Shown here: positions 1 through 57,043 of the stretch, piece after piece
Layout of the letters: each line of letters starts with the position of its first letter
How positions within the stretch are numbered: position 1 is the first letter of the stretch
Assembly: GCA_033584155.1 (NCBI GenBank)
Contig: CP138355.1
Span: 4,677,501-4,741,500, forward strand
DNA from: Candidatus Electrothrix scaldis
GTDB taxonomy: Bacteria > Desulfobacterota > Desulfobulbia > Desulfobulbales > Desulfobulbaceae
Length of the DNA: 64,000 bases
Direction: 5' to 3'
Position numbers and translations under genes: made by a program
Notes under the pieces: generated by a model
The model's database searches: none
What the model was told of the DNA's origin: nothing
What the model saw: only the letters and a program-made list of their open reading frames with translations

Positions 1-3000
1 AGAATACCCCCGTCCCTGTTTGCCCTTTTCCTCCTGCTTGCCGCTGCCGCAGCCTGTGCCGGTGAACCACCCACCGCGCCCATGCTGCGCCTGGAAACCG
101 GCTTCCACACTGCCATGCTTAACCGGATTGCCACGGATGCTCAAGGCCGTTGGCTGGCTACAGCCTCGGATGACAAGACTCTGCGCCTCTGGGATATTCA
201 GGATGCCAAGCACCCCGGCCTGCTGCGCACCTTCCGCCTGCCCAGCGGGCCGGGTGATGAGGGCAAGCTCTATAGCGTGGCTATGGACCCGGCAGGGGAC
301 TGGCTGGCAACGAGTGGATGGAACAAACTCGGATATGACGGCTACGGGAATCACAACATCTTTATCCTTGACCGGGCCACCGGCCAGCTAAGGCAGCGCA
401 TTGAGGGGCTGGGTAATGTGATCAACCATCTCTGCGTGTCCCCGGACGGTCGCTGGCTGGCAGCGGTGTTGGGTGGCGGCGAGGGGCTACGGGTCTACGA
501 TACCGAGCAGGGCTTCCGCCAGGTTTTTGCTGACCGCGACTACGGCAGCAGAAGCTACGGCTGCGCCTTTAGCCCGGACAGCCGCAGCCTGGTCACCACC
601 TGCTATGACGGCAAGATTCGTCGTTATAGCTTGCAGGGAAGCAGCTTCCGCAAAGACCGGCAGATAAAAGCTCAAGGCGGCAAGCAGCCCTCTGCGGTTG
701 CCTTCCATCCATCCAGCGATCAGATTGCGGTCGGCTTTGATGACAGCACCGTAGTAGAAGTTGTGGATGCAAACAAGCTGACCCGGCTCTACGCCGCCGA
801 CACCAGCGGCATTGATAATGGCAACCTTGGTGCGGTGGCTTGGTCAACGGACGGAAGGTTTCTCTTTGCCGGGGGAACCTATGATGACGGCACCGGTAAT
901 AGTCCTGTCCTGCGCTGGGCAGACAAGGGCCAAGGTCAGCGCACAAGCTGGCAGGCAACGGATTCGACAGTGATGGACTTGAAACCATTGCCGGACGGCA
1001 GCCTGCTGGTGGGCACCGGCGGTCCGGCCCTGCTCGGCTATGACAGGCAGGGCAGCAAGCTCTTTGCCCTGCGGCCCACGATCCCGGATATGCGGGGCAA
1101 GCGGGGTGACAGCTTCCAGGTCAGTAGGGACGGCAGGCAGGTCAGCTTTGGTTTGAAGCTATGGGGCAAGGAACCGGTCTGCTTTGATCTGAATCAACGG
1201 CAGTTGCGTAAAGGACAATGCCAGGGCAGTCTGACTGCTCCGCGCACTGCGACGGAGGGCCTCAAGATAGAGAACTGGAACGGTAAGGACAATCCGACCC
1301 TCAACGGTGAAGCACTGGCCTTGAAGGAGGGCGAGATGTCCCGTAGTCTGGCCATTGCCCCGGACAAGCAGCACTTCCTTCTGGGCGCATCCTTCTTACT
1401 GCACTGCTTTGACCGCCAGGGCAGGGAAATCTGGCAGCAGCCCGTGCCGGGTGAAGCCTTTGGCGTGAATATCAGCGGAGACGGCAAGCTGGCCGTGGCC
1501 GCCTTTGGGGACGGTACCATCCGCTGGTACCGCCTCACGGACGGTGAACCCTTACTGGCCCTGTTTGTCACCAGGGACGCAAGCAATTGGGTAGCCTGGA
1601 CACCAAGCGGCTGGTATGCCAGCAGCCCAGGTGGGGACAGCCTGATTGGTTGGCAGGTCAATAACGGCAAAGACCGGCTGGCCGACTTCTTCCCGGCCAG
1701 TCAGTTCCGCCATCGGTTCTACCGCCCGGATGTGGTGGCTGCCGTGCTGGAGACCCTGGACGAAGGCAGGGCCGTGGCCCTGGCGGATGCAGTTTCAGGC
1801 CGAGCCTACAGGCAGGTTTCCGGCCCGGTCAGTTCCTTTCTGCCTCCTGTCATAGAGCTGCTTTCCCCCACAAACGGCAGCGGTTTCAGCAGCCCCACCT
1901 TGAACCTACGCTACCGGGTGAGCACCCAGAGCTCGCCCGTGGTTGCTGTGCAGGTGCGACTGGACGGCGGACTCAATCAGCGTTCCAAGGTACAACAGCG
2001 CAACAAGCCGGAAAAAGAGGAAAGCGTATTCCACCAGCGTTCCGAGGTGCGGCGGCGTAACGCGACGGAGTGGGAAGGGAGTGTGGATGTGACCCTGCCT
2101 GCCAGGGATACGCGCCTTAGTCTGATTGCCGAGAATGCAGATGGAGCCATGTCAGAACCTGCTGTCATTAACCTGCTTTGGCAGGGCAACAAGGATGCGG
2201 GCAGGCCGGTCCTCTACCTACTGGCTGTGGGCGTGGACGACTATGATGCGCCGGAAATCAACTTTGTGGTGGATAAAAAAGGCAAGAGGACGGACAGGAA
2301 GTACCTCAACTATGCTGCTGCCGATGCACAGGCCTTTGCCAAGCTGATGATGCAGCAGGCTGGACCGGGCAAACTCTACCGCGAGATCAGGCACCGTGTG
2401 CGTACCAATGCACAGGCAGACCGCACAACAGTGCTGGAAGGGCTGGAGTGGATTGAACGGGAGACCACAGCCAATGACGTGGCGATGGTCTTTCTCGCCG
2501 GGCATGGCAAGCTGGACACCAAGGAAGACTACTATTTCCTGCCCAGAGACTTCAAGCCTTGGGGTTACCGCAGCAGCGCGGTGTCCTACTATGACATCAA
2601 CAGTGCTGTGTCCAATATTAAGGGCAAGGCCCTGTTCCTGATTGATACCTGCTATTCCGGCCGGGCAGCAGGGATGCGCAGCCCTGCCGATATGCACGGC
2701 AACGGGGAGGTGGATATGACCGGAATCATCAATGACCTGAGCGCGGCAGAGAACGGGGTGATTGTCCTCTCCGCGACCTCCGGCCATCAGCAAGCAGAGG
2801 AGCGGGACGAGTGGAAGCACGGCGTCTTTACCCAGGCTCTGCTGGAAGCCCTGCGCGGCAATGCCAACTATAATACAGACAGGGCACTCACTGTATCCGA
2901 GATCAGAACCTATATCTCCCAGCGAGTAAAGACCCTGACCAACAGCCGCCAGACCCCAGCCGTGGTCATCCCTAAGAACGTGTCAGACTTCCCGGTCTTT

Positions 3001-5649: not shown

Positions 5650-6935
5650 AAACAAAAGATATTCAACAGCCGGATCTTGCTGCAACCCTGCACGCATCAC
5701 GTAAAAAGGGAGGAACCTGCCGCTTATGCCTGCTCGCCTTCCTGATTTGCTGCGTTGCCGGGGCCGTGTTCTCTTTCCGCCAGCAAGGGTCTGAAGGACC
5801 ACCGCAACAGATGGCCTTTAAAACCGAAGCAGTTACCATTGAGGATCTGATAGTCACAGTCACCGCCACCGGCACCCTGGAGCCCACTAATCAGGTGGAT
5901 GTGGGCAGTGAGCTGTCCGGCAAGGTTGAGGCGATCATGGTGGACTTTAACGATCAAGTCACAGAGGGGCAGCTCCTGGCCCGCCTGGATGTGTCCAAAC
6001 TCAAGGCCCAGGTCAAGCAGACCGAAGCCTCGTTACAGGCGGCCAAGGCAAAGGTCCTCCAGACCAAGGCCACTATTGACGAAACCCGAAGCAAGCTGCG
6101 CCAGCTGCAAAAGGTGCGGAAACTCAGTGGCGGTAAGATGCCCTCAAAAACAGATATGGATGCAGCCCAGGCCGCCTATGCCCGTGCCCAGGCCGATCTG
6201 GCCAGCGCCGAGGCCGGGGTTGCCCAGGTGCAGGCCAGCCTGCATATCACCCAGACAGACTTGGCCAAGGCTGAGATTATCTCGCCGGTCAACGGGGTTG
6301 TGCTGTCCAGAAACATCGAAAAAGGCCAGACCGTAGCTGCCTCCTTTGAGGCCCCGGTCCTCTTTGAGCTGGCTGAGGACCTGAGCAAGATGGAACTGCA
6401 TGTGGGTGTGGATGAGGCCGATATCGGACAGGTCCGGGAAGGACAGGAGGCCATGTTTACTGTTGATGCTTATCCTGAGCAGAAGTTCTCCGCCGAGATC
6501 AGTCAGGTCCGTCTTGCCCCAACCACCACGGACGGCGTGGTGACCTATGAAACCGTGCTCGTTGTTGATAATACAGAGCTGGTCCTGCGCCCCGGCATGA
6601 CCGCCACCGCAGAGATCGTAGTGCAGAAGGTGGAAAAGGCCCTGACCGTCGCCAATGCAGCCCTGCGATTCAAGCCTCCCTCAATGGAACAACAACGGAG
6701 CAAGCCCTCTCTCCTTTCCGCCATTCTCCCGCGACGACCAAGAAGAGGACGAAAGCAGCAGCCCCCCCTGCCCAAGGGTGATCGTCAGCATGTCTGGATA
6801 GAGAGCAAGCAGGGACCGCCCCGGCAGGTCGCCATCAAGACCGGCTTTACTGACGGCATTCGCACAGCTGTCCTTGAAGGGGAGATCCGGGAAGGCGAAC
6901 AGGTGATCACCGCAGCCATGAGTAACCGTGAGTAA
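5646..6935 (+). CDS. macA: MacA-type periplasmic adaptor (HlyD/RND membrane fusion protein)
   Basis: 429 residues. An N-terminal membrane anchor (residues ~27-46) is followed by a biotinyl-lipoyl half (TATGTLEPTNQVDVGSELSG), a helical hairpin (~125-205) rich in Ala/Gln/Lys, the second lipoyl half (AEIISPVNGVVLSRNIEKGQ) and beta-barrel domains. This order is the standard periplasmic adaptor fold, which bridges an inner-membrane ABC transporter and the outer membrane channel. A Pro/Arg/Gln-rich insert near residues 345-380 (RRPRRGRKQQPPLPKGD) is unusual. It overlaps the NodT gene by 4 nt and lies 32 nt before the ATPase gene, so the four genes form one operon. Confidence 0.9.
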   Translation: MKTKDIQQPDLAATLHASRKKGGTCRLCLLAFLICCVAGAVFSFRQQGSEGPPQQMAFKTEAVTIEDLIVTVTATGTLEPTNQVDVGSELSGKVEAIMVDFNDQVTEGQLLARLDVSKLKAQVKQTEASLQAAKAKVLQTKATIDETRSKLRQLQKVRKLSGGKMPSKTDMDAAQAAYARAQADLASAEAGVAQVQASLHITQTDLAKAEIISPVNGVVLSRNIEKGQTVAASFEAPVLFELAEDLSKMELHVGVDEADIGQVREGQEAMFTVDAYPEQKFSAEISQVRLAPTTTDGVVTYETVLVVDNTELVLRPGMTATAEIVVQKVEKALTVANAALRFKPPSMEQQRSKPSLLSAILPRRPRRGRKQQPPLPKGDRQHVWIESKQGPPRQVAIKTGFTDGIRTAVLEGEIREGEQVITAAMSNRE

Positions 6936-15860: not shown

Positions 15861-16011
15861 AATAATCATACTATACCAAGATCCGCCTGATTTCTCAATC
15901 AAGTCGATACACGAACTTGTGTCAGGGGGAGATAGCTGCCTGCCGGAAAGCCGAACGCAATCAGCAGGCAGGTTCCGGCAAGGTGTGCGGGAGGGGCGGA
16001 AGCTGCTCCCC

Positions 16012-16206
16012 CTGGGGATCATCCTTCGTCACGAGGGGATTGCCTTCCTCCTCTTGGGAATCATCGTGCGTCACAAGGGGATTGTCTTGCGCCCCTTGGG
16101 GATCATCGTGCGTCACGAGGGGATTGCCTTTCGCTCCTTGGGGATTATCGTGCGTCACAAGGGGATTGCCCTTCGCCCTCTGTGACGGAACATGCGCCCC
16201 TTGGGG
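16012..16206. repeat. 42-bp tandem repeat, four units plus degenerate tail
   Basis: Units start at 16012, 16054, 16096 and 16138, exactly 42 nt apart; each begins (T/C)TGGGGATCATCGTGCGTCA. A degenerate part follows to 16206. As 42 is divisible by three, both strands stay open through it (14-residue repeats GNPLVTHDDPQGA on minus), but no ribosome site or flanking coding sequence supports a gene. It separates the broken PIN gene from the ParA/HEPN pair. The stretch 16207-16480 after it is AT-rich and holds only the ParA leader. Confidence 0.85.
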
Positions 16207-21147: not shown

Positions 21148-21257
21148 CTCGGCCTTTCATCCGCCCTTCCCGCCATCTTTCCTCCTTGTTTCATGGGGAT
21201 GATCAGGGTACCATAGAAAAATCTATCTACAGAACAACTCAGCATACGGAGGGCAAT

Positions 21258-22790
21258 ATGGACCCCATCACAGCAGCGTTATTGGCAGGAGCCGCTACCA
21301 CGGCAGTCAACGAGACCATCAAGCCGGCAGTCAAGGATGCATACGAAGGCTTGAAGGCCAAGGTGAAGCAGTGGTTTACGGAACGCAAGAGGCCGGAGGG
21401 CGAGATGGCCCTGACCATGATTGAGCAGAAGCCGGAGGTGTGGCAGGCGCCGCTGGCAGAGGCAATCAAGGATTCCGGTGCGGGAGACAATGCAGAGCTG
21501 CTTCAGAGGGCAGAGGCATTGCTCGAAATGCTGGAGAAGCCCAAGCCGCAGGTTCATGTTACGCAGAAGGTGAAGGGTGACCACAACATCTTTTCCGGTA
21601 CTGGCAATGTGGAGGTCGTTCACGGCGATAACTTTAAGAGCGATGGTGGATATCAATACTGTACTAAAGTTGGCGGTGGTATTATTATTCCTGATTCTGC
21701 CAAAGAAAAACCGGCTGAAGGCGAAATTGTCGCTGTTGGTCCCGGCAAGATGAACGATGCCTATTATTGCATAGTTCATGAACCTGTTATTTATCCAGTT
21801 TGGTTTGGAACAAATAGAGAACCAAACGATAAAAATGATCTATCCAAAGGCTTTAGTGGAAACAGAGCAAAAAAATTAGGAACTGTATATTATGGCAGAT
21901 GTGATGTTGCTATACCAAAAACTCATCGTTTTGGAGAGACAGGAAGAGCGTGGTGGAAGAGATGGGTTTCTTTAGATTTCAGAGGAAATGATCATCTAAC
22001 AGTAGAAAAGATAGAATGCTGTAAAGACAGTGATGACTTTTGGCACCAATTAAGAAGCCATTTCTTGGAAAGAGAGATTACTGAAAGAGACGCTGTTGTT
22101 TTTTTGCATGGTTTCAATAATTCCTTTGAAGATGCTGCAATACGAGCGGCTCAAATTGGTTTCGACTTGAAGATTCGTGGTTACACCGCTTTTTTCAGTT
22201 GGCCGTCAAAAGCAAAAGTATTCAAGTATACAGTGGATGAGAGCAGCATCTCTGCAAGCGAGGATGCCATTACGGATTTCTTGCTTGATTTCACCAAGAA
22301 GTCTGGATCAGAACGAGTTCATATAATTGCCCATAGTATGGGCAATCGTGGCTTGTTGCAGGCATTGAAAAATATAGCGGGAAAAGTTCAATCTTCTGAT
22401 TCTCCTGTTGAATTTGGCCAAATTATACTTGCCGCACCGGACTTAGATGTAGAGGTGTTCAGAAGAGCCAAAGATGCTTACCTCTCATTATCAAAATTAA
22501 CCACTATCTATTCATCATCAAAAGATATTCCTGTTTTTCTATCAAAAAGACTACATGAATATCCAAGATTAGGTATCATTCCGCCTATTACAATTGAGGA
22601 GGGGATAGATACTGTGCAAGTCAATAATTTTAACTTATTTAATCTTGGACACGGTTATTTCGCTGAAGCGGAGGCCCTCCTACATGATATCTTTAATCTA
22701 ATTCGGTATAGTGAATCGCCAAGGCATCGACAGAGGCTCAGTGAACAACAAACGGAAGACGGTAAAATTTACTGGTTAATCGATACATAA
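21258..22790 (+). CDS. DUF900-type alpha/beta hydrolase with N-terminal signalling domain, amyloid-like motif and GroES-derived segment
   Basis: 510 residues from ATG 21258, behind a GGAGGG site. Residues 1-45 ([20 protein letters not shown]) match the helical N-terminus often seen on bacterial NACHT, TIR or protease effectors. Residues ~100-120 contain [16 protein letters not shown], like RHIM-type bacterial amyloid signalling motifs. Residues ~138-165 ([20 protein letters not shown] and on to AVGPGK) are almost the GroES consensus, covering the GroEL-binding mobile loop. Residues ~190-500 form an alpha/beta hydrolase: [14 protein letters not shown] and nucleophile Ser360 in AHSMGN. I infer an effector hydrolase or lipase with an assembly domain. 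The GroES part may be a recombination scar or a chaperonin docking loop. Codon use turns AT-rich in the second half. Confidence 0.85.
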
Positions 22791-22946: not shown

Positions 22947-23010
22947 GTTGCACCGGAGTACAACCCATCGTTGCACTCTAGTGGAACTCATCGTTGCACT
23001 CTAATGGAAC
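22947..23010. repeat. 23-bp periodic palindromic array (three units) at the 3' end of hipA
   Basis: Three 18-nt imperfect palindromes start at 22947, 22970 and 22993, each followed by a 5-nt spacer: GTTGCACCGGAGTACAAC, GTTGCACTCTAGTGGAAC, GTTGCACTCTAATGGAAC. The last overlaps the end of hipA and encodes its final residues. The 18+5 layout matches the array at 55599-55805 although the sequences differ. Confidence 0.7.
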
Positions 23011-24253
23011 CGATCATTGCCAGTGGCAAACGCCGAGAAATCTTCGCACTAACCACCCCTCTGACCCCAGCAACCCGAGCAAACTCCGGCCAGCGTTCCA
23101 CAGCAGCGGCAACCTCATCAAGTATCACTTCCACCTCTTTCTCCGCAACACCATACTCCCCTGCCAGTTCAACAACATGCCTGTACGCAGGAGCCCGGCC
23201 TTCACCGGCCACGGTCATACTGTGTTCCCCTCCGGGGCCGTCAGCAAAGGTGAGATCGTATGCCGGGGCCAAAGACCATTTCCCTGTGCGATCATCCAGA
23301 ATAAAACTGAAATTCTTCACATGGTCGTCGCGATTATGGGTCAGGATGTTGAACAGCATCAGCCGGAAGGCCCGCAGCAGGTCCTCATGGTTGCGGGTCA
23401 GCAGGGTGGTCACCTTGAAGAGATCAGCATAATCACAGGACGGGATACGAAAATTCGCCTGGATAAGATTACCAAAAGTGTGGATATGGTAACGGCGGTT
23501 CTCCGGGCCGCGATCAAAACGTTTGATCCCGAAAAAAGACTCTCCCTGCTCGGTTGTAAACAACCTTGTTTCCGGTATTGTAATACCGGCAGCACGGGCC
23601 ATGAGGGCATAGGCATACTCCACCGGCCCTGCATCACGGCTGTCTTCTTTGGCTGAAAACTTGACCAGCCAATGTTCAAATCCGGGAGGCAGGTCATCGT
23701 CACCGGCAATAATGCTCCTGTCCTGCCCATTCCAGCCCACAAGCACCTTAGGCCGTGCTCCGCCCGGACTGCCGCCGGTGCGTAATAAGAGGGGCAGTAT
23801 CTCGGTCTCATCACCGGCAAAAATTCGTTGCGAACGAGCAGCCAGATCATGCAGATCCAGCAACGTTGTCTCCGAAGCCCGGGCCTCCGGAGGATAATAG
23901 GTCAATGCCCCTATAGTGGAGCGGCCCAGATACAGCAGACGGTCAAGGGGAGAAAGGATGCCCGGTTCACGGCCCAGACTACGAAAATGGCGATCCATGA
24001 GCAGCAGCCCCCAGCCATCAGGCAGGGAATCGTCAAACAAACCAAAGAGCGGACCGAAATTCCGCTGCTGATGCTCCACAAGACCGGCTTTCGCAGGCAG
24101 AATAAAGGGGGAGAGTTCCAACCCCCTTTGCAGCCAGGAAGGGTGGTACTCAAAAAAGAGACGATGTCCCTGTGTCGCCAGCGTGCCAACCTTCCATAAC
24201 TTTCCCGGCGAGACAGTAAACCGCACCTCGACCTCCTGCAAAGCTGCGGCCAT
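22988..24253 (-). CDS. hipA: HipA-type serine/threonine kinase toxin
   Basis: 421 residues. Residues ~10-100 are the HipA N-terminal subdomain (FGLFDDSLPDGWG); the P-loop-like Ser motif is GGSPGGARPK; the catalytic loop is HNRDDHVKNFSF and the metal-binding Asp is in YDLTFAD. HipA kinases phosphorylate aminoacyl-tRNA synthetases and stop growth; HipB neutralises them. The last codons (SIRVQR) come from a unit of a 23-bp repeat array, so the natural C-terminus has been replaced or extended. Its start is 1 nt after the hipB stop, typical of hipBA operons. All catalytic motifs are intact. Confidence 0.93.
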   Translation of the reverse strand: MAAALQEVEVRFTVSPGKLWKVGTLATQGHRLFFEYHPSWLQRGLELSPFILPAKAGLVEHQQRNFGPLFGLFDDSLPDGWGLLLMDRHFRSLGREPGILSPLDRLLYLGRSTIGALTYYPPEARASETTLLDLHDLAARSQRIFAGDETEILPLLLRTGGSPGGARPKVLVGWNGQDRSIIAGDDDLPPGFEHWLVKFSAKEDSRDAGPVEYAYALMARAAGITIPETRLFTTEQGESFFGIKRFDRGPENRRYHIHTFGNLIQANFRIPSCDYADLFKVTTLLTRNHEDLLRAFRLMLFNILTHNRDDHVKNFSFILDDRTGKWSLAPAYDLTFADGPGGEHSMTVAGEGRAPAYRHVVELAGEYGVAEKEVEVILDEVAAAVERWPEFARVAGVRGVVSAKISRRLPLAMIGSIRVQR

Positions 24254-50884: not shown

Positions 50885-53044
50885 TCACTTCTTCCCTTTG
50901 TTTAGCCAGTCATCAATCAGGGCATTGAGATTCACTCCCATGCCAGCAACATTGGGCTTCAATTCCGTGCGCTCATTGACCCGCCGCACCAAGGCCTTCA
51001 ACCGTCCCTCCCGCTTATCCGCCTGGATTGCAACCCGCATCAGCTCCCCCTCCTGCTCATTATCAGGATGCACCGCAGCAAGCAGACCCTCGACGCTGTA
51101 GACCTGGTCCGAGTCCTCGGGGATGTACTGTTCCAGACCCTTTTCCCGGTAGGTGAGCAGGGTCTTGTACGGCACGCTGTGCCGGGGATCATCAGGCATG
51201 GGCACCCGCTCGCTCACCCGCAGGCCCTCAAAGCCGGTATTGATCTCCCGCAGGGAGAGCCAGATCAGGGCCAGATAGACCTTACGCTCCTTGCCCGTGA
51301 CCGCGATATGGATGCGCCGGGCCTCGTTGTCCGCCCGCACCACGGCGGTGGCCTCCAGCTGAGGATGGGCCAGCACCACCCCGCTGCGCCAGCGCAACCT
51401 GTCTTTTATCTCCTTATGCCGCTTGACAATAAAACGGGGCATGACTGAGGGGGGCAGAAAGTCTTCATACTTCAGAAGGAAACGGAGCGCATCCTGGTCA
51501 TCAAAGGTAAAGGGAGGCTCTGAGACCTCCAGCAGGTCCGGGATAAGCACCTCGCCGTTTTCCAGTTCGTAACACAGCTCGAACTTACGCATCAGCTCAA
51601 TGAAATAGCCGTGATCCCGCCACTGGTAGCGGTAGCTGTCGCCTTCCTGAAAGCGGAGAATCTCCCGCAAATCATCCTTGCGGAACAGGCCCTTGCGCTC
51701 GGCAATGGAGGGGGCATTGATAATCTTATACACGGCCTCGGTCACCCATTTAGGGTCCAGGACATGATTATCCGCCAGATCGAACTCGGTAAAGTGGATG
51801 ACGATGCCCAGATCGTGGAGAAAGTCCACCAGCACCTGCTGGCTGATCTCGCCCGACACCCCGGCCTCCCGGCACAGGGCCTCGCAGTCTTCATAGCTGA
51901 TGCAGGGATGGTTCAGCTTCTCCAGCCGCTCCTTTGCCCGGAACCAACTTTCCGGCCATTCATTGCGGGTCAGCGGTACTTTGGTCAGCTCCTCCTCCAG
52001 GGCCTGGCGGAAGTCCCGGATGCCGTTGCCTGTGCGGCAGGATGTGCGAAAGAAGTCCACGATGAACGGGTATTTCTTCTTGAGGAAAGGGCGGTTGAGA
52101 TCAAAGCCGGGATTAGTGTCGTACTTGTTCAGCACCACCAGCACCGGCGACCCACCTCCGAAGGACTCTATATAGCGCAGCCAGTACTCAGGCCGCTCGT
52201 CCCGCCTGCCATCCAGGACAAGGACATAGAGGCTGCGTCGGGAGAGAAAGAACTGGTGGGTGGCGTGCATGATCTCCTGACCGCCAAAGTCCCAGAGGTT
52301 GCAGCGCAGTCCTTGGTCGCCGGTTTTGAGCTTCCAGTTCTTGATGCGGATACCGTGGGTGGTTTCCTCGTGGGCGTTGAACCGCTCCTCCCGGAGGCAG
52401 CGGGTGAGGGAGGTCTTGCCGGATGCTCCTTCTCCTACAAGGATTACCTTGACCTCGGAGACTGTCCGGGTGCCTTCTTCGGCGGAGGCAAAGTATTCGC
52501 GTATGGCTTCGATGCCTTGGACTGCGAGTTCTATGGGTGGGGAGGTGAGGGGGTTGTTGTCAAGTACAATTCTTTTTAAGTTTGGCAGTTGAGCGATTTC
52601 TGGCGGAAGAGTGGTAAGGTGGTTGCTGTTAAGGGCAAGATTAGTCAGATTCTTCAGCTTAAAGAGTTCTATCGGCAGTGTGGAAAGCCTATTGAGGGTA
52701 AGGAAAAGAATAGTTAAATTATTTAGTTGAACTATCTCTGGCGGTAGGCGGAAAAGGCGGTTGTTGATGAGGTTAAGCGAGCTAAGTTCCTTCAGTTCAA
52801 AGAGTTCGGGCGGCAGGCTGGTAAGCTGGTTGCTGCTAAGGCCAAGCTCAGTCAGTTTCCTGAGTTGAAAGAGCTTTGGCGGCAGCGAAGTAAGATGATT
52901 GCTACTCAAATCAAGCCTAGTTAGTTGCTTCAGTTCAAAGAGCTCATGCGGCAATTCTGTCAAGTCTTGCCAATTAAGATCGAGTCTTGTGGCTCCTGTT
53001 TTCGCAGCCCATTCAATTCTCCGCAACGCCTCTTCATACCCCAT
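50885..53044 (-). CDS. LRR-Roco protein (leucine-rich repeats, Roc GTPase, COR domain)
   Basis: 719 residues. Residues ~18-175 are seven leucine-rich repeats of 23 residues (LTRLDLSSNHLTSLPPKLF type). Roc GTPase at ~195-350: P-loop GEGASGKTSL, DxxG in WDFGGQEIMHATHQFF, NKYD specificity motif. COR domain at ~380-560 (VKWVTEAVYKIINAP-like), then a C-terminal ~150 residues of unclear fold. Bacterial Roco proteins are dimeric GTPases; their roles are poorly known and the kinase of eukaryotic LRRK2 is absent. Ribosome site AGGAAAGGAGGAAC. Its leader and first codons are duplicated at 55534-55569. Confidence 0.93.
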   Translation of the reverse strand: MGYEEALRRIEWAAKTGATRLDLNWQDLTELPHELFELKQLTRLDLSSNHLTSLPPKLFQLRKLTELGLSSNQLTSLPPELFELKELSSLNLINNRLFRLPPEIVQLNNLTILFLTLNRLSTLPIELFKLKNLTNLALNSNHLTTLPPEIAQLPNLKRIVLDNNPLTSPPIELAVQGIEAIREYFASAEEGTRTVSEVKVILVGEGASGKTSLTRCLREERFNAHEETTHGIRIKNWKLKTGDQGLRCNLWDFGGQEIMHATHQFFLSRRSLYVLVLDGRRDERPEYWLRYIESFGGGSPVLVVLNKYDTNPGFDLNRPFLKKKYPFIVDFFRTSCRTGNGIRDFRQALEEELTKVPLTRNEWPESWFRAKERLEKLNHPCISYEDCEALCREAGVSGEISQQVLVDFLHDLGIVIHFTEFDLADNHVLDPKWVTEAVYKIINAPSIAERKGLFRKDDLREILRFQEGDSYRYQWRDHGYFIELMRKFELCYELENGEVLIPDLLEVSEPPFTFDDQDALRFLLKYEDFLPPSVMPRFIVKRHKEIKDRLRWRSGVVLAHPQLEATAVVRADNEARRIHIAVTGKERKVYLALIWLSLREINTGFEGLRVSERVPMPDDPRHSVPYKTLLTYREKGLEQYIPEDSDQVYSVEGLLAAVHPDNEQEGELMRVAIQADKREGRLKALVRRVNERTELKPNVAGMGVNLNALIDDWLNKGKK

Positions 53045-53063
53045 CGCCCGTTCCTCCTTTCCT
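53028..53063. repeat. Direct repeat copy 1 (Roco leader and first codons)
   Basis: 36 nt covering the Roco ribosome site, ATG and first six codons; 35 of 36 bases are identical to 55534-55569. The two copies flank a 2.5-kb segment that carries an array and the AAA/RloB operon. Confidence 0.85.
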
Positions 53064-53185
53064 GTCCCCCGGCGCGTTGCACCGGGCTGATATATATTGT
53101 CCCTTCAGGACATGCCTTCCCGTACCCTTGCCCCAACGGGGCTATATCTATCCAGCGCAGGGTAACACCCTGTGCGAACCTGTTA
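53064..53185. other. Roco leader region with small palindromes
   Basis: No gene. Contains CGCAGGGT-aac-ACCCTGTGCG (53151-53171), CCCCAACGGGG and other short GC palindromes, leading into the 23-bp array. A minus-strand open frame (52960-53238) runs through it but reads only through repeats. Confidence 0.5.
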
Positions 53186-53364
53186 GTACCATCTAGGTAA
53201 GTCCGAGAGACATACCTAGGTAAGTCCGTCAGTACCATCTAGGTAAGTCCGAGAGACATACCTGGGTAAGTCCGTCAGTACCATCTAGGTAAGTCCGGGA
53301 GACATACCTGGGTAAGTCCGACAGTATCATCTAGGTAAGTCCGACAGACATATTACCATAGGTC
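53186..53364. repeat. 23-bp periodic array upstream of the Roco gene, seven units plus one degenerate
   Basis: Units begin at 53186, 53209, 53232, 53255, 53278, 53301 and 53324; a degenerate eighth runs from 53347. All contain (T/C)(A/G)GGTAAGTCCG. Even units hold an 18-nt palindrome with one mismatch (GACATACCTAGGTAAGTC) plus a 5-nt spacer; odd units are less symmetric, giving a 46-nt super-period. Lies 120 nt upstream of the Roco ribosome site. Region 53365-53582 after it has no gene. Confidence 0.85.
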
Positions 53365-53582
53365 AGCAGGACATACGAGTATACCTCTGCAAAAGGAGAC
53401 TTTGAGCATCCTGAAGAGGAAACAGTGTTGGAGAAAAATCAGCAGGCCCGAAGCAGGGCAGGGGTACCAGCAGCAAAGAGCAAGAAAGCGCATACGAACA
53501 TCTTTCCCCTTGATTTTCATAGCCTGACTTTCTAAGGTGAGGCTTGGATACAAGAGCATTTCCACACCTGAGAGAGCATACC

Positions 53583-54896
53583 ATGATCATAAGCTTTTCG
53601 CTTGAAAACTGGATGTCCTTCCGCGACCCGGTCACCTTTTCAATGCTTGCAACAGAGGAGCGTCGGCATAGCGGACGGATTGCCAAACTTGGCAAGTACC
53701 AAACAAAGGTTCTGCCCATTGCAGCAGTCTATGGCGGCAATGCTTCCGGCAAGAGCAACCTGTTCAAGGCCCTGAACTTTGCTAAGTCCCTGGTTGTTAA
53801 TATTACCCAGCTTGACGAAGCGATTCCTGTGCAGACCTTTTGTCTGGATGCGGACAGAGCAGCGCAACCTGCCCGGTTCGCCTTTGAACTGCTGATTGAT
53901 GAGGTCATCTATGATTTCAGCTTTGCTGTGACCGGAACCGCTGTTGTGGAAGAGCAGCTTGTGAAGATTACAGGCGAGCAGGAGGAAGTCCTGTACAGCA
54001 GACCGGGAAGACCGCCGGAAGACCCCTCGCTTCAGGTCGTGTTTCACGGCACCAGGGATAACCAGCTCTTTCTCACCAACTCTGTTTCACAGAAGGTCAG
54101 TGCCTTCAGGCCGGTGTATGACTGGTTCAAGGATACGCTTAAACTCGTCTCGCCTGATTCTTCTCCCGACCTCTTTCCTGTTGTTGAGGATGGTTCCTTA
54201 TCCCAAACTATGAATGAGCTGCTGCAACAGCTGGACACAGGTATCCTTCAATTGGAAGGAGAGGAGCTTCCCTTTGAACATGTCCCTGTAGAATTTATAA
54301 GGCATGTCTTTCATAGAAACATGAAAGAAGGCGCAACAGTCACTGTACGGGATACGCATCTATCGAACGGCCCAGGCATAATCCTCATCACCCTGCAAGG
54401 AGACAGGCTGACAGCAAAGAAACTGATGGCCTCTCATCGGAAAGCAGACGGTACAGAGGCAAAGTTTGAGATGCATCAGGAATCGGACGGTACTTTGCGG
54501 GTTATTGAACTCCTGCCGGTCTTTCTGCGCCTTGCCGAGTCAAGCGCAAAGCAGGTGTATGTTATCGACGAAATTGACCGCAGCCTGCATACCCTGCTAA
54601 CCAGAAGACTGCTTCAAGGCTATCTTTCCGGCTGCTCGGCAAAGACCCGCTCACAGCTCCTGCTGACCACCCACGATCTGCTGCTCATGGACAAAGAACT
54701 CCTGCGCCATGATGAAATGTGGGTAACGGAGCGGGATGCGGCAGGCGCATCAACACTCTTTTCCTTTAGTGAGTACAAAGAGGCGGGCAAAGATAAAGAT
54801 ATTCGGAAAAGCTATCTTCAGGGACGGCTGGGCGGTATCCCGCATATTCTGCTGCACAGTCCTTTGCAACACTCTGGGGCTGAGGAGGCGGAATAA
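53583..54896 (+). CDS. AAA ATPase of an AbiL/Rlo-type defence pair
   Basis: 437 residues from ATG 53583 (MIISFSLENWMSFRD is the family start; an upstream TTG at 53544 is unlikely). SMC/ABC-like ATPase: Walker A GGNASGKSNL at residue 51, and Walker B VYVIDEIDRSLHTLLTRRLL followed by an LTTHDLLLMD switch. Such AAA_15/AAA_21 proteins are paired with TOPRIM-like RloB or DUF4435 nucleases in abortive infection (AbiL, PARIS). The stop overlaps the RloB start (TAATG). Stands between two 23-bp arrays on the strand opposite to Roco. Confidence 0.9.
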   Translation: MIISFSLENWMSFRDPVTFSMLATEERRHSGRIAKLGKYQTKVLPIAAVYGGNASGKSNLFKALNFAKSLVVNITQLDEAIPVQTFCLDADRAAQPARFAFELLIDEVIYDFSFAVTGTAVVEEQLVKITGEQEEVLYSRPGRPPEDPSLQVVFHGTRDNQLFLTNSVSQKVSAFRPVYDWFKDTLKLVSPDSSPDLFPVVEDGSLSQTMNELLQQLDTGILQLEGEELPFEHVPVEFIRHVFHRNMKEGATVTVRDTHLSNGPGIILITLQGDRLTAKKLMASHRKADGTEAKFEMHQESDGTLRVIELLPVFLRLAESSAKQVYVIDEIDRSLHTLLTRRLLQGYLSGCSAKTRSQLLLTTHDLLLMDKELLRHDEMWVTERDAAGASTLFSFSEYKEAGKDKDIRKSYLQGRLGGIPHILLHSPLQHSGAEEAE

Positions 54897-55504
54897 TGGC
54901 CCGGAAAGCACGCAGGTTTGTACGACAGACCGGGCAGCGACCATATCGCAAACTGTTCCTCATTGCTGCGGAAGGAGCAAAGACGGAACCGCAGTATTTC
55001 TCCATGTTCAACAGCCCACACGCAACGATTCAGGTAAACTGCCTGAAATGCGGGCATGACAGTGCGCCTCCTCAAGTACTGCGGCGTATGAAAACCTGGC
55101 TGAAAAAGAACGGGTTAAAGGATTCAGACGAGGCGTGGCTGGTTGTTGACAAAGATCAGTGGACCGATACGCAGCTCAAGGAACTGCTCACTTGGTCGCA
55201 GAGCAAGGAGAATTACGGTTTTGCTCTCAGTAATCCCAAGTTTGAATACTGGCTGCTCCTGCATTTTGAAGACGGCAAAGGTGTGGATACCGCGCGTAAA
55301 TGTTCAGAGCACCTGAGAAGGTATCTCAAAAACTACGACAAAGGGATTGATCTGCGAAAATTCACCCAAGACAGCATCAGCAAGGCTGTTCATCAGGCCA
55401 GATTGCGTGATACTCCGCCATGCACAGGCTGGCCCAAATCCTTCGGCACAACAGTGTACAGACTGGTTGAGAAATTCATTGCACCGGAAACCGGTTACCG
55501 TTGA
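54896..55504 (+). CDS. rloB: RloB-family TOPRIM-like nuclease of the AbiL/Rlo-type pair
   Basis: 202 residues. RloB motifs: AAEGAKTEPQYFSMF (TOPRIM-like acidic residue), VVDKDQW and SNPKFEYWLLLHFEDG. Cys in CLKCGHD add a possible metal site. In AbiL and related systems the ATPase senses infection and the RloB partner is the toxic effector that halts growth or cleaves nucleic acid. Its 3' end overlaps, on the other strand, a short remnant of a Roco gene start. Confidence 0.9.
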   Translation: MARKARRFVRQTGQRPYRKLFLIAAEGAKTEPQYFSMFNSPHATIQVNCLKCGHDSAPPQVLRRMKTWLKKNGLKDSDEAWLVVDKDQWTDTQLKELLTWSQSKENYGFALSNPKFEYWLLLHFEDGKGVDTARKCSEHLRRYLKNYDKGIDLRKFTQDSISKAVHQARLRDTPPCTGWPKSFGTTVYRLVEKFIAPETGYR

Positions 55505-55550
55505 GGTCAAAATTCGTTTCCCCTGTCTTTCTTGCCTCTTCATACCCCAT
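55476..55550 (-). pseudogene. Remnant of the 5' end of a second Roco/LRR gene
   Basis: The minus strand reads ATG and then MGYEEARKTGETNFDLNGN before a stop at 55476. It aligns with the intact Roco N-terminus MGYEEALRRIEWAAKTGATR (then LDLNWQD) with a 7-residue gap. The same AGGAAAGGAGGAAC ribosome site is kept. The rest of the gene is gone, replaced by the rloB 3' end. Confidence 0.7.
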
Positions 55551-55569
55551 CGCCTGTTCCTCCTTTCCT
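55534..55569. repeat. Direct repeat copy 2 (Roco leader and first codons)
   Basis: Second copy of the 36-nt sequence at 53028-53063, one mismatch, same orientation. Marks the duplicated Roco start. Confidence 0.85.
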
Positions 55570-55598
55570 ATTCTTGCCTTTCACCCATACCCCGCCGG

Positions 55599-55805
55599 GA
55601 GTATAACGCTATACTCCGTCCGAGCATAACACCATGCTCCACACGAGCATAACACTATGCTCCATCCGAGTATAATGCTTTACTCCTCATGAGCAACCAT
55701 CGTTCCTCTCCATGAGAAACCGTAGTCCCTCTATCAGAGCAACCAAGGTTCCTCTACAAGAGCCACAACGGTTCCTCCATCGGAGCAACCCAGGTTGCTC
55801 TGCAT
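55599..55805. repeat. 23-bp periodic palindromic array, nine units with covarying arms
   Basis: Nine units exactly 23 nt apart (55599, 55622, 55645, 55668, 55691, 55714, 55737, 55760, 55783). Each is an 18-nt imperfect palindrome starting GAG and ending CTC, plus a 5-nt spacer. Arms covary: GAGTATA/TATACTC in unit 1, GAGCATA/TATGCTC in unit 3, GAGCAACC/GGTTGCTC in unit 9. Spacers are all different (CGTCC, CACAC, CATCC, CTCAT and others). Located 30 nt upstream of the Roco remnant's ribosome site. No gene in 55505-55843. Confidence 0.88.
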
Positions 55806-55843
55806 AAAGATAGCATGTACCTCTTTGCTGATCCCCCTCCTGA

Positions 55844-57043
55844 TTAGGGTCGTTCCTCCTCCCTGATCTTCACCCGCACCCAGGGCAGAGCCGAAACCTT
55901 GTGCCGCCGCAGCTCATCCAAAGGATAAAAGGTGCCGCGCCAGTCAACCCCACCCCGGAGCAGGGTCAGCAACACAGCCCGCCAGATAATAAAGAGCTTG
56001 ATATACGGGGTCACGGGAAACCAGTACAGGCAGCGGAGATCCATGTGAAAGAAGCGAAGCGACAGGAACAGACCGAGCACATTGACCGCAACGATGGTCC
56101 CGCAGAGAAGCCGGGGCAGGCCATCAGCCAGCAGCAGGCCCCAGAGCGGGAGGATCTGGGTGGAGAAGACAGCCACAATCGTGGCAAGGAAGAAGGACAG
56201 GCGGTAGTCCAGCAGGGCATAGGTGTTCTTTTCCAGGCCGCGCATCATCTGGCCCACAGTTTGGTACCAATCCACGCTGACAAAGTGGCCCCCGAGCAGG
56301 CAATCGCACCTGCCACCGCTGATCTTGACCATGCGCCCCAGCAGCACGTCATCCACCGGACAAAGGCGGATGGGATGATGCCCGCCAAAGCTGTGATAGA
56401 AACTCTTCCGTATCATGTTGAAGGCGCCTGCCCCGACATAGAAGCGGGGTCCAGGCTTGCTGACCAGCCAGGGCCTCAGCAGAGAGAAAAGACTGGCAAG
56501 GCTGTCTGCAACCAGCAAGGGCAGCAGTGAGCCGGGCGCGCTCATGCGGAAAAAGAGACAGAGGTGATCCAGGGTTTGGCTCTGCATCCGTGCCACGGCA
56601 CGCCTGAGGGTATCCGGGGCAAAGTGAACATCGGCATCGGTAAAAAGGAGGTATTCTCCCTGGGCTTGGGCTGCTCCCAGGTGCAGGGCATGATTCTTCC
56701 CCAGCCAACCCGCTGGCAGCTCTGTGATGTGGATCACCCGCAGGCGGTCATGCTGACTTGCCACCCGGTCAAGGATCTCCGGCGTGGCATCAGTGGAACG
56801 ATCATCAAGGACGATGATCTCCAGGTTGGGATAATCCAGGGCCAGGACCGAGGTCAAGGCCTGCTCTATCTCCTGCTCCTCATTGCAGGCCGGGATAATG
56901 ACCGAGATTGAAGGCAGGGTATCTCCATCCAGAGGCGTAACATCCTCCAAGCGCACCATACGGCGATGGGCCAGATACATATTCCGCAGCACAGCCAGGG
57001 CAATAACAAGGAGACAGAACAGAAACAGGGTAAACACGAACAT
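55844..57043 (-). CDS. Membrane-associated family 2 glycosyltransferase
   Basis: 399 residues. N-terminal helix at ~4-20, GT-A core with SVIIPACNEEQEIEQALTSV, DDRSTD and the DAD metal site in LFTDADVHFA, then a RxxRW-like region (YQTVGQMMRGLEKNTYALLD) and three C-terminal helices. The layout resembles HpnB- and ceramide-glucosyltransferase-like enzymes acting on lipids. Substrate unknown. Same strand as truA and separated from it by a GTAGGGG palindrome. Confidence 0.88.
   Translation of the reverse strand: MFVFTLFLFCLLVIALAVLRNMYLAHRRMVRLEDVTPLDGDTLPSISVIIPACNEEQEIEQALTSVLALDYPNLEIIVLDDRSTDATPEILDRVASQHDRLRVIHITELPAGWLGKNHALHLGAAQAQGEYLLFTDADVHFAPDTLRRAVARMQSQTLDHLCLFFRMSAPGSLLPLLVADSLASLFSLLRPWLVSKPGPRFYVGAGAFNMIRKSFYHSFGGHHPIRLCPVDDVLLGRMVKISGGRCDCLLGGHFVSVDWYQTVGQMMRGLEKNTYALLDYRLSFFLATIVAVFSTQILPLWGLLLADGLPRLLCGTIVAVNVLGLFLSLRFFHMDLRCLYWFPVTPYIKLFIIWRAVLLTLLRGGVDWRGTFYPLDELRRHKVSALPWVRVKIREEERP

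Follow-up and report, generated by a model that had tools for sequence, protein, structure and literature searches.

Tandem palindrome arrays with a 23-bp period as probable operators of HU-HIG (DUF4469) proteins

Some DNA-binding proteins are encoded next to an array of their own sites, as in the parS/parC centromeres and the iterons of Rep proteins. The arrays that we describe here resemble these systems in that a DNA-binding protein is encoded beside a tandem array of its presumed sites. They differ in the protein involved, since the HU-HIG proteins have an HU fold, many paralogues per chromosome and private motifs, and in the presence of additional, solitary arrays. HU proteins are non-specific or weakly specific packagers of DNA, and the known members of the IHF/HU group bind singly or with little sequence preference. 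HU-HIG proteins share the HU superfamily with them but have private tandem arrays beside their genes, and we know of no such arrays for IHF/HU. The HU-HIG family (HU-DNA_bdg plus DUF4469; PF18291, PF14848 and PF14734), to which the array-side genes belong by profile match, was reportedly described by Burroughs and colleagues in 2017. To our knowledge, neither cognate tandem arrays of HU-HIG proteins nor binding of these proteins to such arrays has been reported, and, among the matches listed, literature searches yielded nothing on these arrays or on HU-HIG protein sites.

The window, which is the whole 64-kb stretch of DNA that was analysed, lies in a closed 5.09-Mb genome (G000). At positions 55599-55805 it carries nine units whose starts are exactly 23 bp apart (TRF period 23), each consisting of an 18-bp imperfect palindrome, GAG-N12-CTC, plus 5 bp; the coordinates, period and 18 + 5 layout of the original prediction were thus found again. 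The array splits into two blocks in a single register, block A (units 1-4, 55599-55690, 23-bp period; GAGYATAAYRCYWTRCTC, of the type GAGTATAACGCTATACTC) and block B (units 5-9, 55691-55805; GAGCAAC-N4-GTTSCTC-like, of the type GAGCAACCAAGGTTCCTC), the latter in exact 23-bp register with the former. Positions 1-3/16-18 are invariant in all nine units and, in sets of 43 and 68 arrays, symmetry is strong at positions 1-3 and 5-7 and much weaker at position 4 and in the centre. The window array is built from 7-bp half-sites that alternate in direction at distances of about 11 and about 12 bp, which is the make-up of a protein-binding site. Palindromic units at a regular spacing are reminiscent of CRISPR, but a CRISPR has a near-constant repeat and long unique spacers, whereas here the 18-bp units drift and the 'spacers' have only 5 bp, as had already been argued from the sequence.

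This geometry is more frequent than chance would give. G000 contains 45 matches to GAG-N12-CTC-N5-GAG-N12-CTC, the pattern of two successive units, against 5 for a reversed control pattern. We also scanned 42 periods in 1.164 Mb, made up of 55 stretches of 20 kb placed blind to arrays and the window. Three palindromes in a row were above the threshold 14 times at period 23, against a mean of 2.4 at other periods, and five in a row, with a stricter threshold, seven times against 0.25. Nine of the 14 hits are arrays by eye, three of them in the window, and the remainder look like chance. A separate array score rises with the period, so that counts obtained with it beyond about 30 bp cannot be compared.

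Around the first 32 arrays, one gene for a protein of about 355 aa recurs at seven, where it follows the array at a distance of 40-170 bp, and by profile match it encodes a DUF4469 protein with an HU-like N-terminus (HU-HIG, for HU fold and Ig domain). Both the HU-like N-terminal part and the Ig-like DUF4469 part of the array neighbours were recognised by profile. Among 27 of these proteins, PF14734 was found in 23, PF14848 in 15 and PF18291 in 13 at an E value of 0.1 or better, the best values being 9.2e-7 for PF14848 and 8e-8 for PF18291; in another profile search, five proteins gave four PF18291 hits, all under the curated cut-off. Against the PDB, the family matches 4fmr at 7.7e-6 over profile positions 25-223 and HU chains at 0.09-0.45. 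AlphaFold modelled neither the full-length protein nor its HU part well (pLDDT 51 and 54), and a PDB fold search with the first of these models gave no match at 0.001.

HU-HIG genes are narrowly distributed around the window's genome. With fragments included, there are 16, 18, 14, 14, 5, 19, 0 and 2 matches in genomes G000 to G007 of the window's genus (g1) and 33, 23 and 15 in three genomes of the sister genus (g10); most likely, g1 is Ca. Electrothrix and g10 is Ca. Electronema, i.e. both are cable bacteria. In total, 10 of 57 relatives carry HU-HIG genes, and none of the 46 relatives outside g1 and g10 has one at 1e-20. The 47 relatives without HU-HIG have 0-2 matches to the array pattern, and frequent occurrence of the GAG pair pattern is confined to g10 and some of the g1 genomes. 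Two genomes weigh against HU-HIG proteins as readers of the arrays: G007 has two HU-HIG matches and no match to the GAG pattern, and G004, whose array is the same as that of Ca. Electrothrix aarhusensis MCF, has three pattern matches, as many as its control. Among 297 genomes drawn evenly from the phylum, a draw that contained no other recognised cable bacterium, HU-HIG was found in one, the window's own. Over one genome per species in 84,980 species, the four-unit pattern marks 51 stretches, of which 25 are in Desulfobulbaceae-type records and have varied half-sites, and 26 are elsewhere, many of them plain repeats; L049, L061 and L097 among these 26 turned out to belong to the system described here. 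The 64-kb window itself contains no HU-HIG gene.

For the window's clade we counted 96 distinct HU-HIG genes from eleven sources, leaving out matches shorter than 300 aa, genes with less than 250 bp of sequence ahead of them and duplicates, defined by identity over residues 11-200. A 23-bp palindromic array lies upstream of 78 of the 96, against none of the 96 after shuffling and at most four at other periods from 19 to 31; the 18 genes without an array at this threshold speak against HU-HIG proteins as the readers. In the first set, the array was upstream in 31 of 39 genes and downstream in 1 of 38. The geometry is shared among paralogues, while their motifs differ (CCCGATAACGGTATCGGG, GTTGATAGCACTATGAAC, TTTCCACTATAGTGCAAA and others). 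The arrays are followed by sigma-70-type promoters: with a model of TTGACA, 16-18 bp and TATAAT, 70 of 75 score at least 9 of 12, compared with 12 of 75 after shuffling, and the -35 element is mostly 82-91 bp ahead of the ATG. The distance between the array end and the -35 element clusters near 16-17, 39, 62 and 108 bp and is 15-18 modulo 23 in 54 of 70 (12 expected), a fixed place relative to the promoter such as an autoregulatory array would have in this clade.

The last array unit would be centred near -61 of the HU-HIG promoter, a position at which class I activators bind; CRP has its class I activator site at -61.5. HU-HIG arrays of the window's clade are like such sites in that they stop 16-17 bp short of the -35 element, or farther away by multiples of 23 bp, and unlike them in being rows of 3-11 units and in lying 3' of the gene in a second phylum. 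Since the end of the row coincides with the place from which a class I activator would contact RNA polymerase, autoregulation of HU-HIG through the array beside its own gene is likely in cable bacteria. Two loci of this type have further repeats or genes next to the array. At L019:5900-6130, CRISPR-like repeats (GTCTTAATACCCTCTTCATAGGGTAGG) stop about 100 bp ahead of the HU-HIG array at 6221, and at L163:700-2360 an ORF that looks like a transposase by eye (1026-1946, minus strand) separates a weak array from a divergent HU-HIG gene.

The association is also found in a second phylum. In Bacteroidales-type genomes we reached 46 HU-HIG loci in eleven genomes from L061 (Marinifilum flexuosum), L068 (an uncultured Bacteroides), L097 (Odoribacteraceae) and relatives of L097, which are probably Bacteroidales, judging from the centre of the search. 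A 23-bp palindromic array accompanies 28 of the 46 loci, other periods at most 3 and shuffled sequences none. The 18 loci without an array again weigh against HU-HIG proteins as readers, and the genome of L092 contains no DUF4469. Here the arrays lie on the other side of the gene: 26 of the 28 are 20-308 bp 3' of it and two are 5', and where gene starts could be placed the array is upstream in 1 of 33. For L061 in genome G346 and L097 in genome G349, an HU-HIG gene and an array were found at the same place, and the gene and array of L049 are near-identical to those of L061. The loci L302/L319, L304/L325 and L306/L327, paired between G346 and G358, share their motifs by eye; G346, the genome of Marinifilum flexuosum DSM 21950, has nine DUF4469 matches, and its HU-HIG gene of L304 has the array AGAGCAGGGGTGTGCTC. 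Considering L049, L061 and L097 as plain minisatellites was rejected, as their arrays adjoin HU-HIG genes. With 26 of the 28 arrays on the 3' side, the arrays cannot in general serve for class I activation; the constants are the geometry, the adjacency and the private motif, and the promoter position belongs specifically to the window's clade.

The motif follows the protein. Motif similarity is 0.26-0.29 at protein identities below 0.55 and 0.71 at identities above 0.80, and it correlates with HU-HIG protein similarity (Mantel r 0.15, p 5e-4). In partial Mantel tests the correlation belongs to the HU part given the Ig part (r 0.13, p 5e-4) and not to the Ig part given the HU part (r 0.04, p 0.11), and clustering at 80% (59 proteins) leaves values of 0.097 (p 0.005) and 0.026 (p 0.24), respectively. 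In ten cross-genus reciprocal pairs, however, the motif is not better conserved than the promoter flank (z 2.4 and 2.5), and two of the ten have unlike motifs; the similarity of orthologue motifs may partly reflect shared descent of the upstream DNA. Specificity is also called into question by the L174 and L182 proteins, which are 83% identical and whose half-sites share, by eye, only the outer GTT. A search for specificity residues placed 14 of its 20 best columns in the HU part, which holds 37% of the tested columns, with no control for multiple tests. For 114 orthologous units, taken from 24 pairs that overlap in part, the change per site is 0.077 in half-site cores, 0.105 at positions 4/15, 0.151 in the centre and 0.209 in the spacer.

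Arrays also occur away from HU-HIG genes, and some of them match the array of a distant HU-HIG gene. Seven of 19 such blocks in G000, a set that is not unbiased because several arrays were found via the GAG pattern or beside ROCO genes, carry the motif of an HU-HIG promoter array located elsewhere in this genome, with agreement at 16-18 of 18 positions against a null mean of about 10. These are block B, the window arrays at 22947 and 53186, the array at 1627508, two ROCO arrays (1926455 and 1422169) and 3483345. Block B agrees at 17 of 18 positions with the array that precedes the HU-HIG gene G000:1829049; the null mean is 10.4, and 0 of 300 permutations reach 17. The second array of the window (53186-53346), seven units in which GTACCATCTAGGTAAGTC and GACATACCTAGGTAAGTC alternate, is flanked by the ROCO gene and the RloA-like gene, both with their 5' ends towards it, and matches the array of G000:37717 at 17 of 18; it continues into a divergent tail (53347-53392; GACATATTACCATAGGTC, GACATACGAGTATACCTC) to which a tail in G006 is related. 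The third array (22947-23015), three GTTGCACTCTAGTGGAAC-like units that overlap a HipA gene at its 3' end, matches the array of G000:4298950 at 16 of 18. The other 12 blocks remain under 16 of 18, which weighs against HU-HIG proteins as readers. Block A has no clear partner, its best HU-HIG promoter array in G000 agreeing at 15 of 18, and by eye it shares its motif class with the array beside an HU-HIG gene of S24.Bin023 (L086/L168). L020:1592 and L021 are likewise at 15 and nine further blocks at 11-14; 459600, 2907961 and the ROCO array 5029298 reach only 11-12 of 18.

A registered promoter was seen on 2 of 66 sides of solitary arrays, compared with 4 of 7 HU-HIG arrays in the same test, and on neither side of the window array. 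By our own reading, 6 of 15 solitary arrays in G000 lie between convergent genes. The scarcity of registered promoters together with this convergent placement argues for an architectural role of the solitary arrays. Two distant arrays, L025:19577-19967 and L037:11514-11743, have the same two-motif composite (TCAAATGC.. + CGCTGAC..) in reverse-complement order, and no HU-HIG partner was found for either.

The rows that stand beside HU-Ig genes each have their own sequence and all share one spacing, so that they resemble addresses for these proteins to read more than RNA hairpins. We consider it probable that the window array is a tandem operator for a dimeric protein, with one site every 23 bp, whose readers are HU-HIG (DUF4469) proteins. 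HU-HIG proteins would bind their own arrays directly, each palindrome taking one HU-Ig dimer and each array forming a cooperative row, and the solitary arrays would be remote addresses of the same proteins. In the window array, block B would then serve the protein of G000:1829049 and block A a relative of it. Solitary arrays may serve silencing, insulation or bridging to other arrays; as a first guess, they may be bridged or coated via the Ig domains. It is tempting to go further, although here we would rather lean against than for, and to speculate that HU-Ig paralogues form an expandable set of private chromosome addresses, in which each protein reads its own 23-bp array, sets its own level and gathers or coats solitary arrays, and in which composites like the solitary window array join two addresses in a single register. 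If such private addresses were read, the HU fold would have become a diversifying, sequence-specific family in at least Desulfobacterota and Bacteroidota. Private sites would also supply about 100 natural pairs of protein and site for a recognition code (78 in one clade, 28 in the other phylum), and a domain still named DUF4469 would gain a testable role. Some HU-HIG members belong to a cultured type strain, Marinifilum flexuosum DSM 21950.

The original prediction left the choice between a hairpin and a dimeric binding site; the dimeric site is supported, while for the hairpin no covariation appears at the level of the unit. An array of RNA or single-strand DNA hairpins, in which the region is transcribed, the units fold and the arms are free to vary as long as they pair, is in our opinion very unlikely, even though the units are palindromes with a variable, loop-like 4-nt centre. 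Taken alone, the nine units do beat a shuffled model, with a covariation score of 0.286 against 0.090 and none of 500 shuffles reaching it, but no unit-level covariation emerges from the larger tests, whether within arrays or between species. Three stem pairs of the window array have changes on both sides (4/15, 6/13 and 7/12), and those at 6/13 and 7/12 are the single difference between blocks A and B, one event counted repeatedly, to which we mainly attribute the excess. Nor is complementarity kept throughout, as had been claimed, since pairs are open at 4/15 in four of the nine units, at 5/14 in two, at 6/13 in one and at 7/12 in one. The 4/15 pair is formed in all four block A units and in one of five in block B, whose unpaired letters there are identical in the close relative G005; in G005, one block A unit carries T at 4 and G at 15. 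Across 243 units from 43 arrays, halves pair no better within the unit (0.696) than after re-pairing with non-adjacent halves of the same array (0.697; Wilcoxon p 0.64), and slightly better than with the neighbouring half across the spacer (0.677; p 0.018), the last of which favours a hairpin. The window array alone gives 0.73, 0.57 and 0.68 for these three because it has two blocks, and 68 HU-HIG arrays, those with fewer than four units left out, give 0.654 within the unit against 0.649 re-paired (p 0.50). We compared 100 pairs of orthologous units, drawn from 21 array pairs that are not all independent. Of their 700 stem pairs 102 have changed, 91 on one side (35 breaking a pair, 34 making one, 22 neither) and 11 on both, against 4.6 by chance, a small excess that weighs against our preferred reading. 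Only three of these 11 are compensatory, so that the proposed count of compensatory changes comes to 3 of 102, and Rfam has no match at the window array. That the arrays are ordinary minisatellites, functionless products of tandem duplication, we regard as very unlikely too. Unit number does differ between close relatives, nine in G000 and 11 in G005 (six of type A, five of type B), and G001 has RloB and the glycosyltransferase and no array at the orthologous place. Against this stand the single geometry of 23 bp and an 18-bp palindrome with unrelated sequences in two phyla, the slower change of half-sites than of spacers and the register of arrays to the promoter. The homologous array of G005 has retained symmetry as well as period, so that the loss of symmetry named in the original prediction as refuting it was not seen there. 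Over the nine aligned units there are 12 differences, seven in the centre, four in the spacer and one in a half-site core, and all five units of block B are present in G005, changed in centre and spacer only; nearby, 277 of 295 positions to the right and 484 of 500 in RloB are identical. Unit centres, with 7 of 36 positions changed (L262), have evolved faster than these surroundings (18/295 and 16/500).

A regulator other than HU-HIG, or several, might own these operators and happen to control HU-HIG and other genes, which seems rather unlikely to us. Such a regulator would suit the promoter position of the arrays in the window's clade, and binding by HU-HIG proteins is itself inferred. On the other hand, the motif tracks the HU domain of the neighbouring protein and the association persists with 3' arrays in the second phylum; because the array classes differ in motif, a single regulator could hardly read them all. 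Similarly unlikely is that the arrays are mainly landing pads for recombination, where cassettes such as RloAB enter and with which the arrays spread. In the window, a ROCO (LRR-Roc-COR) gene (50885-53044, minus strand; PF16095 1.1e-36, PF08477 8.9e-28, PF25497 2.3e-27 and LRR families) lies by the second array and is followed by genes for an RloA-like AAA_21 ATPase (53544-54896, plus; PF13304 5.5e-37) and an RloB-like protein (54896-55504, plus; PF13707 5.5e-35) whose 3' end is 95 bp left of the window array; to the right is the 3' end of a family 2 glycosyltransferase gene (55844-57043, minus; PF00535 9.9e-31). RloAB therefore stands between two arrays, and beside the window array is a 36-nt relic of a ROCO gene start (55534-55569, minus; ribosome site, ATG and first codons), which recurs at 53028-53063 (97%) and at G000:1926206 and is absent in G005. 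In G006, which has no RloAB, the ROCO gene, a short array related to the 53347 tail and the glycosyltransferase gene are contiguous. Genes of conflict type make up 14 of 29 scanned array neighbours, many of them chosen by eye, against 1 of 19 random genes (20 less L127:6881-7672, which lies beside an array), and arrays are found at 4 of 6 ROCO genes of G000; the neighbours of solitary arrays include ROCO, TIR, NACHT/NB-ARC, MmeI, HipA, HepT, Abi and RloAB genes. However, a single insertion was seen, G001 has RloB without an array, the neighbours came partly by eye from several genomes and the controls from one, and among ten less selected neighbours two are of conflict type (p 0.27).

At the place of the window array, G003 has an array of another class, which matches HU-HIG arrays of other genomes at 17 of 18 at best (L243), and G003's own HU-HIG gene, L256, shares the class of L243 by its protein (82% to L250). 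No comparable array was seen at that end in G002 and two g10 hits. The place thus holds an array in three of these genomes, with different addresses. The RloAB cassette (53044-55843) appears to have been inserted between the ROCO gene with its array and the glycosyltransferase gene. Elsewhere in the window, positions 16008-16178 hold a tandem repeat of 42 bp (4.1 copies, 85% matches), and by the third array and HipA an ORF at 21186-22790 combines a DUF900 alpha/beta hydrolase with a Cpn10-like stretch (PF05990, PF00166).
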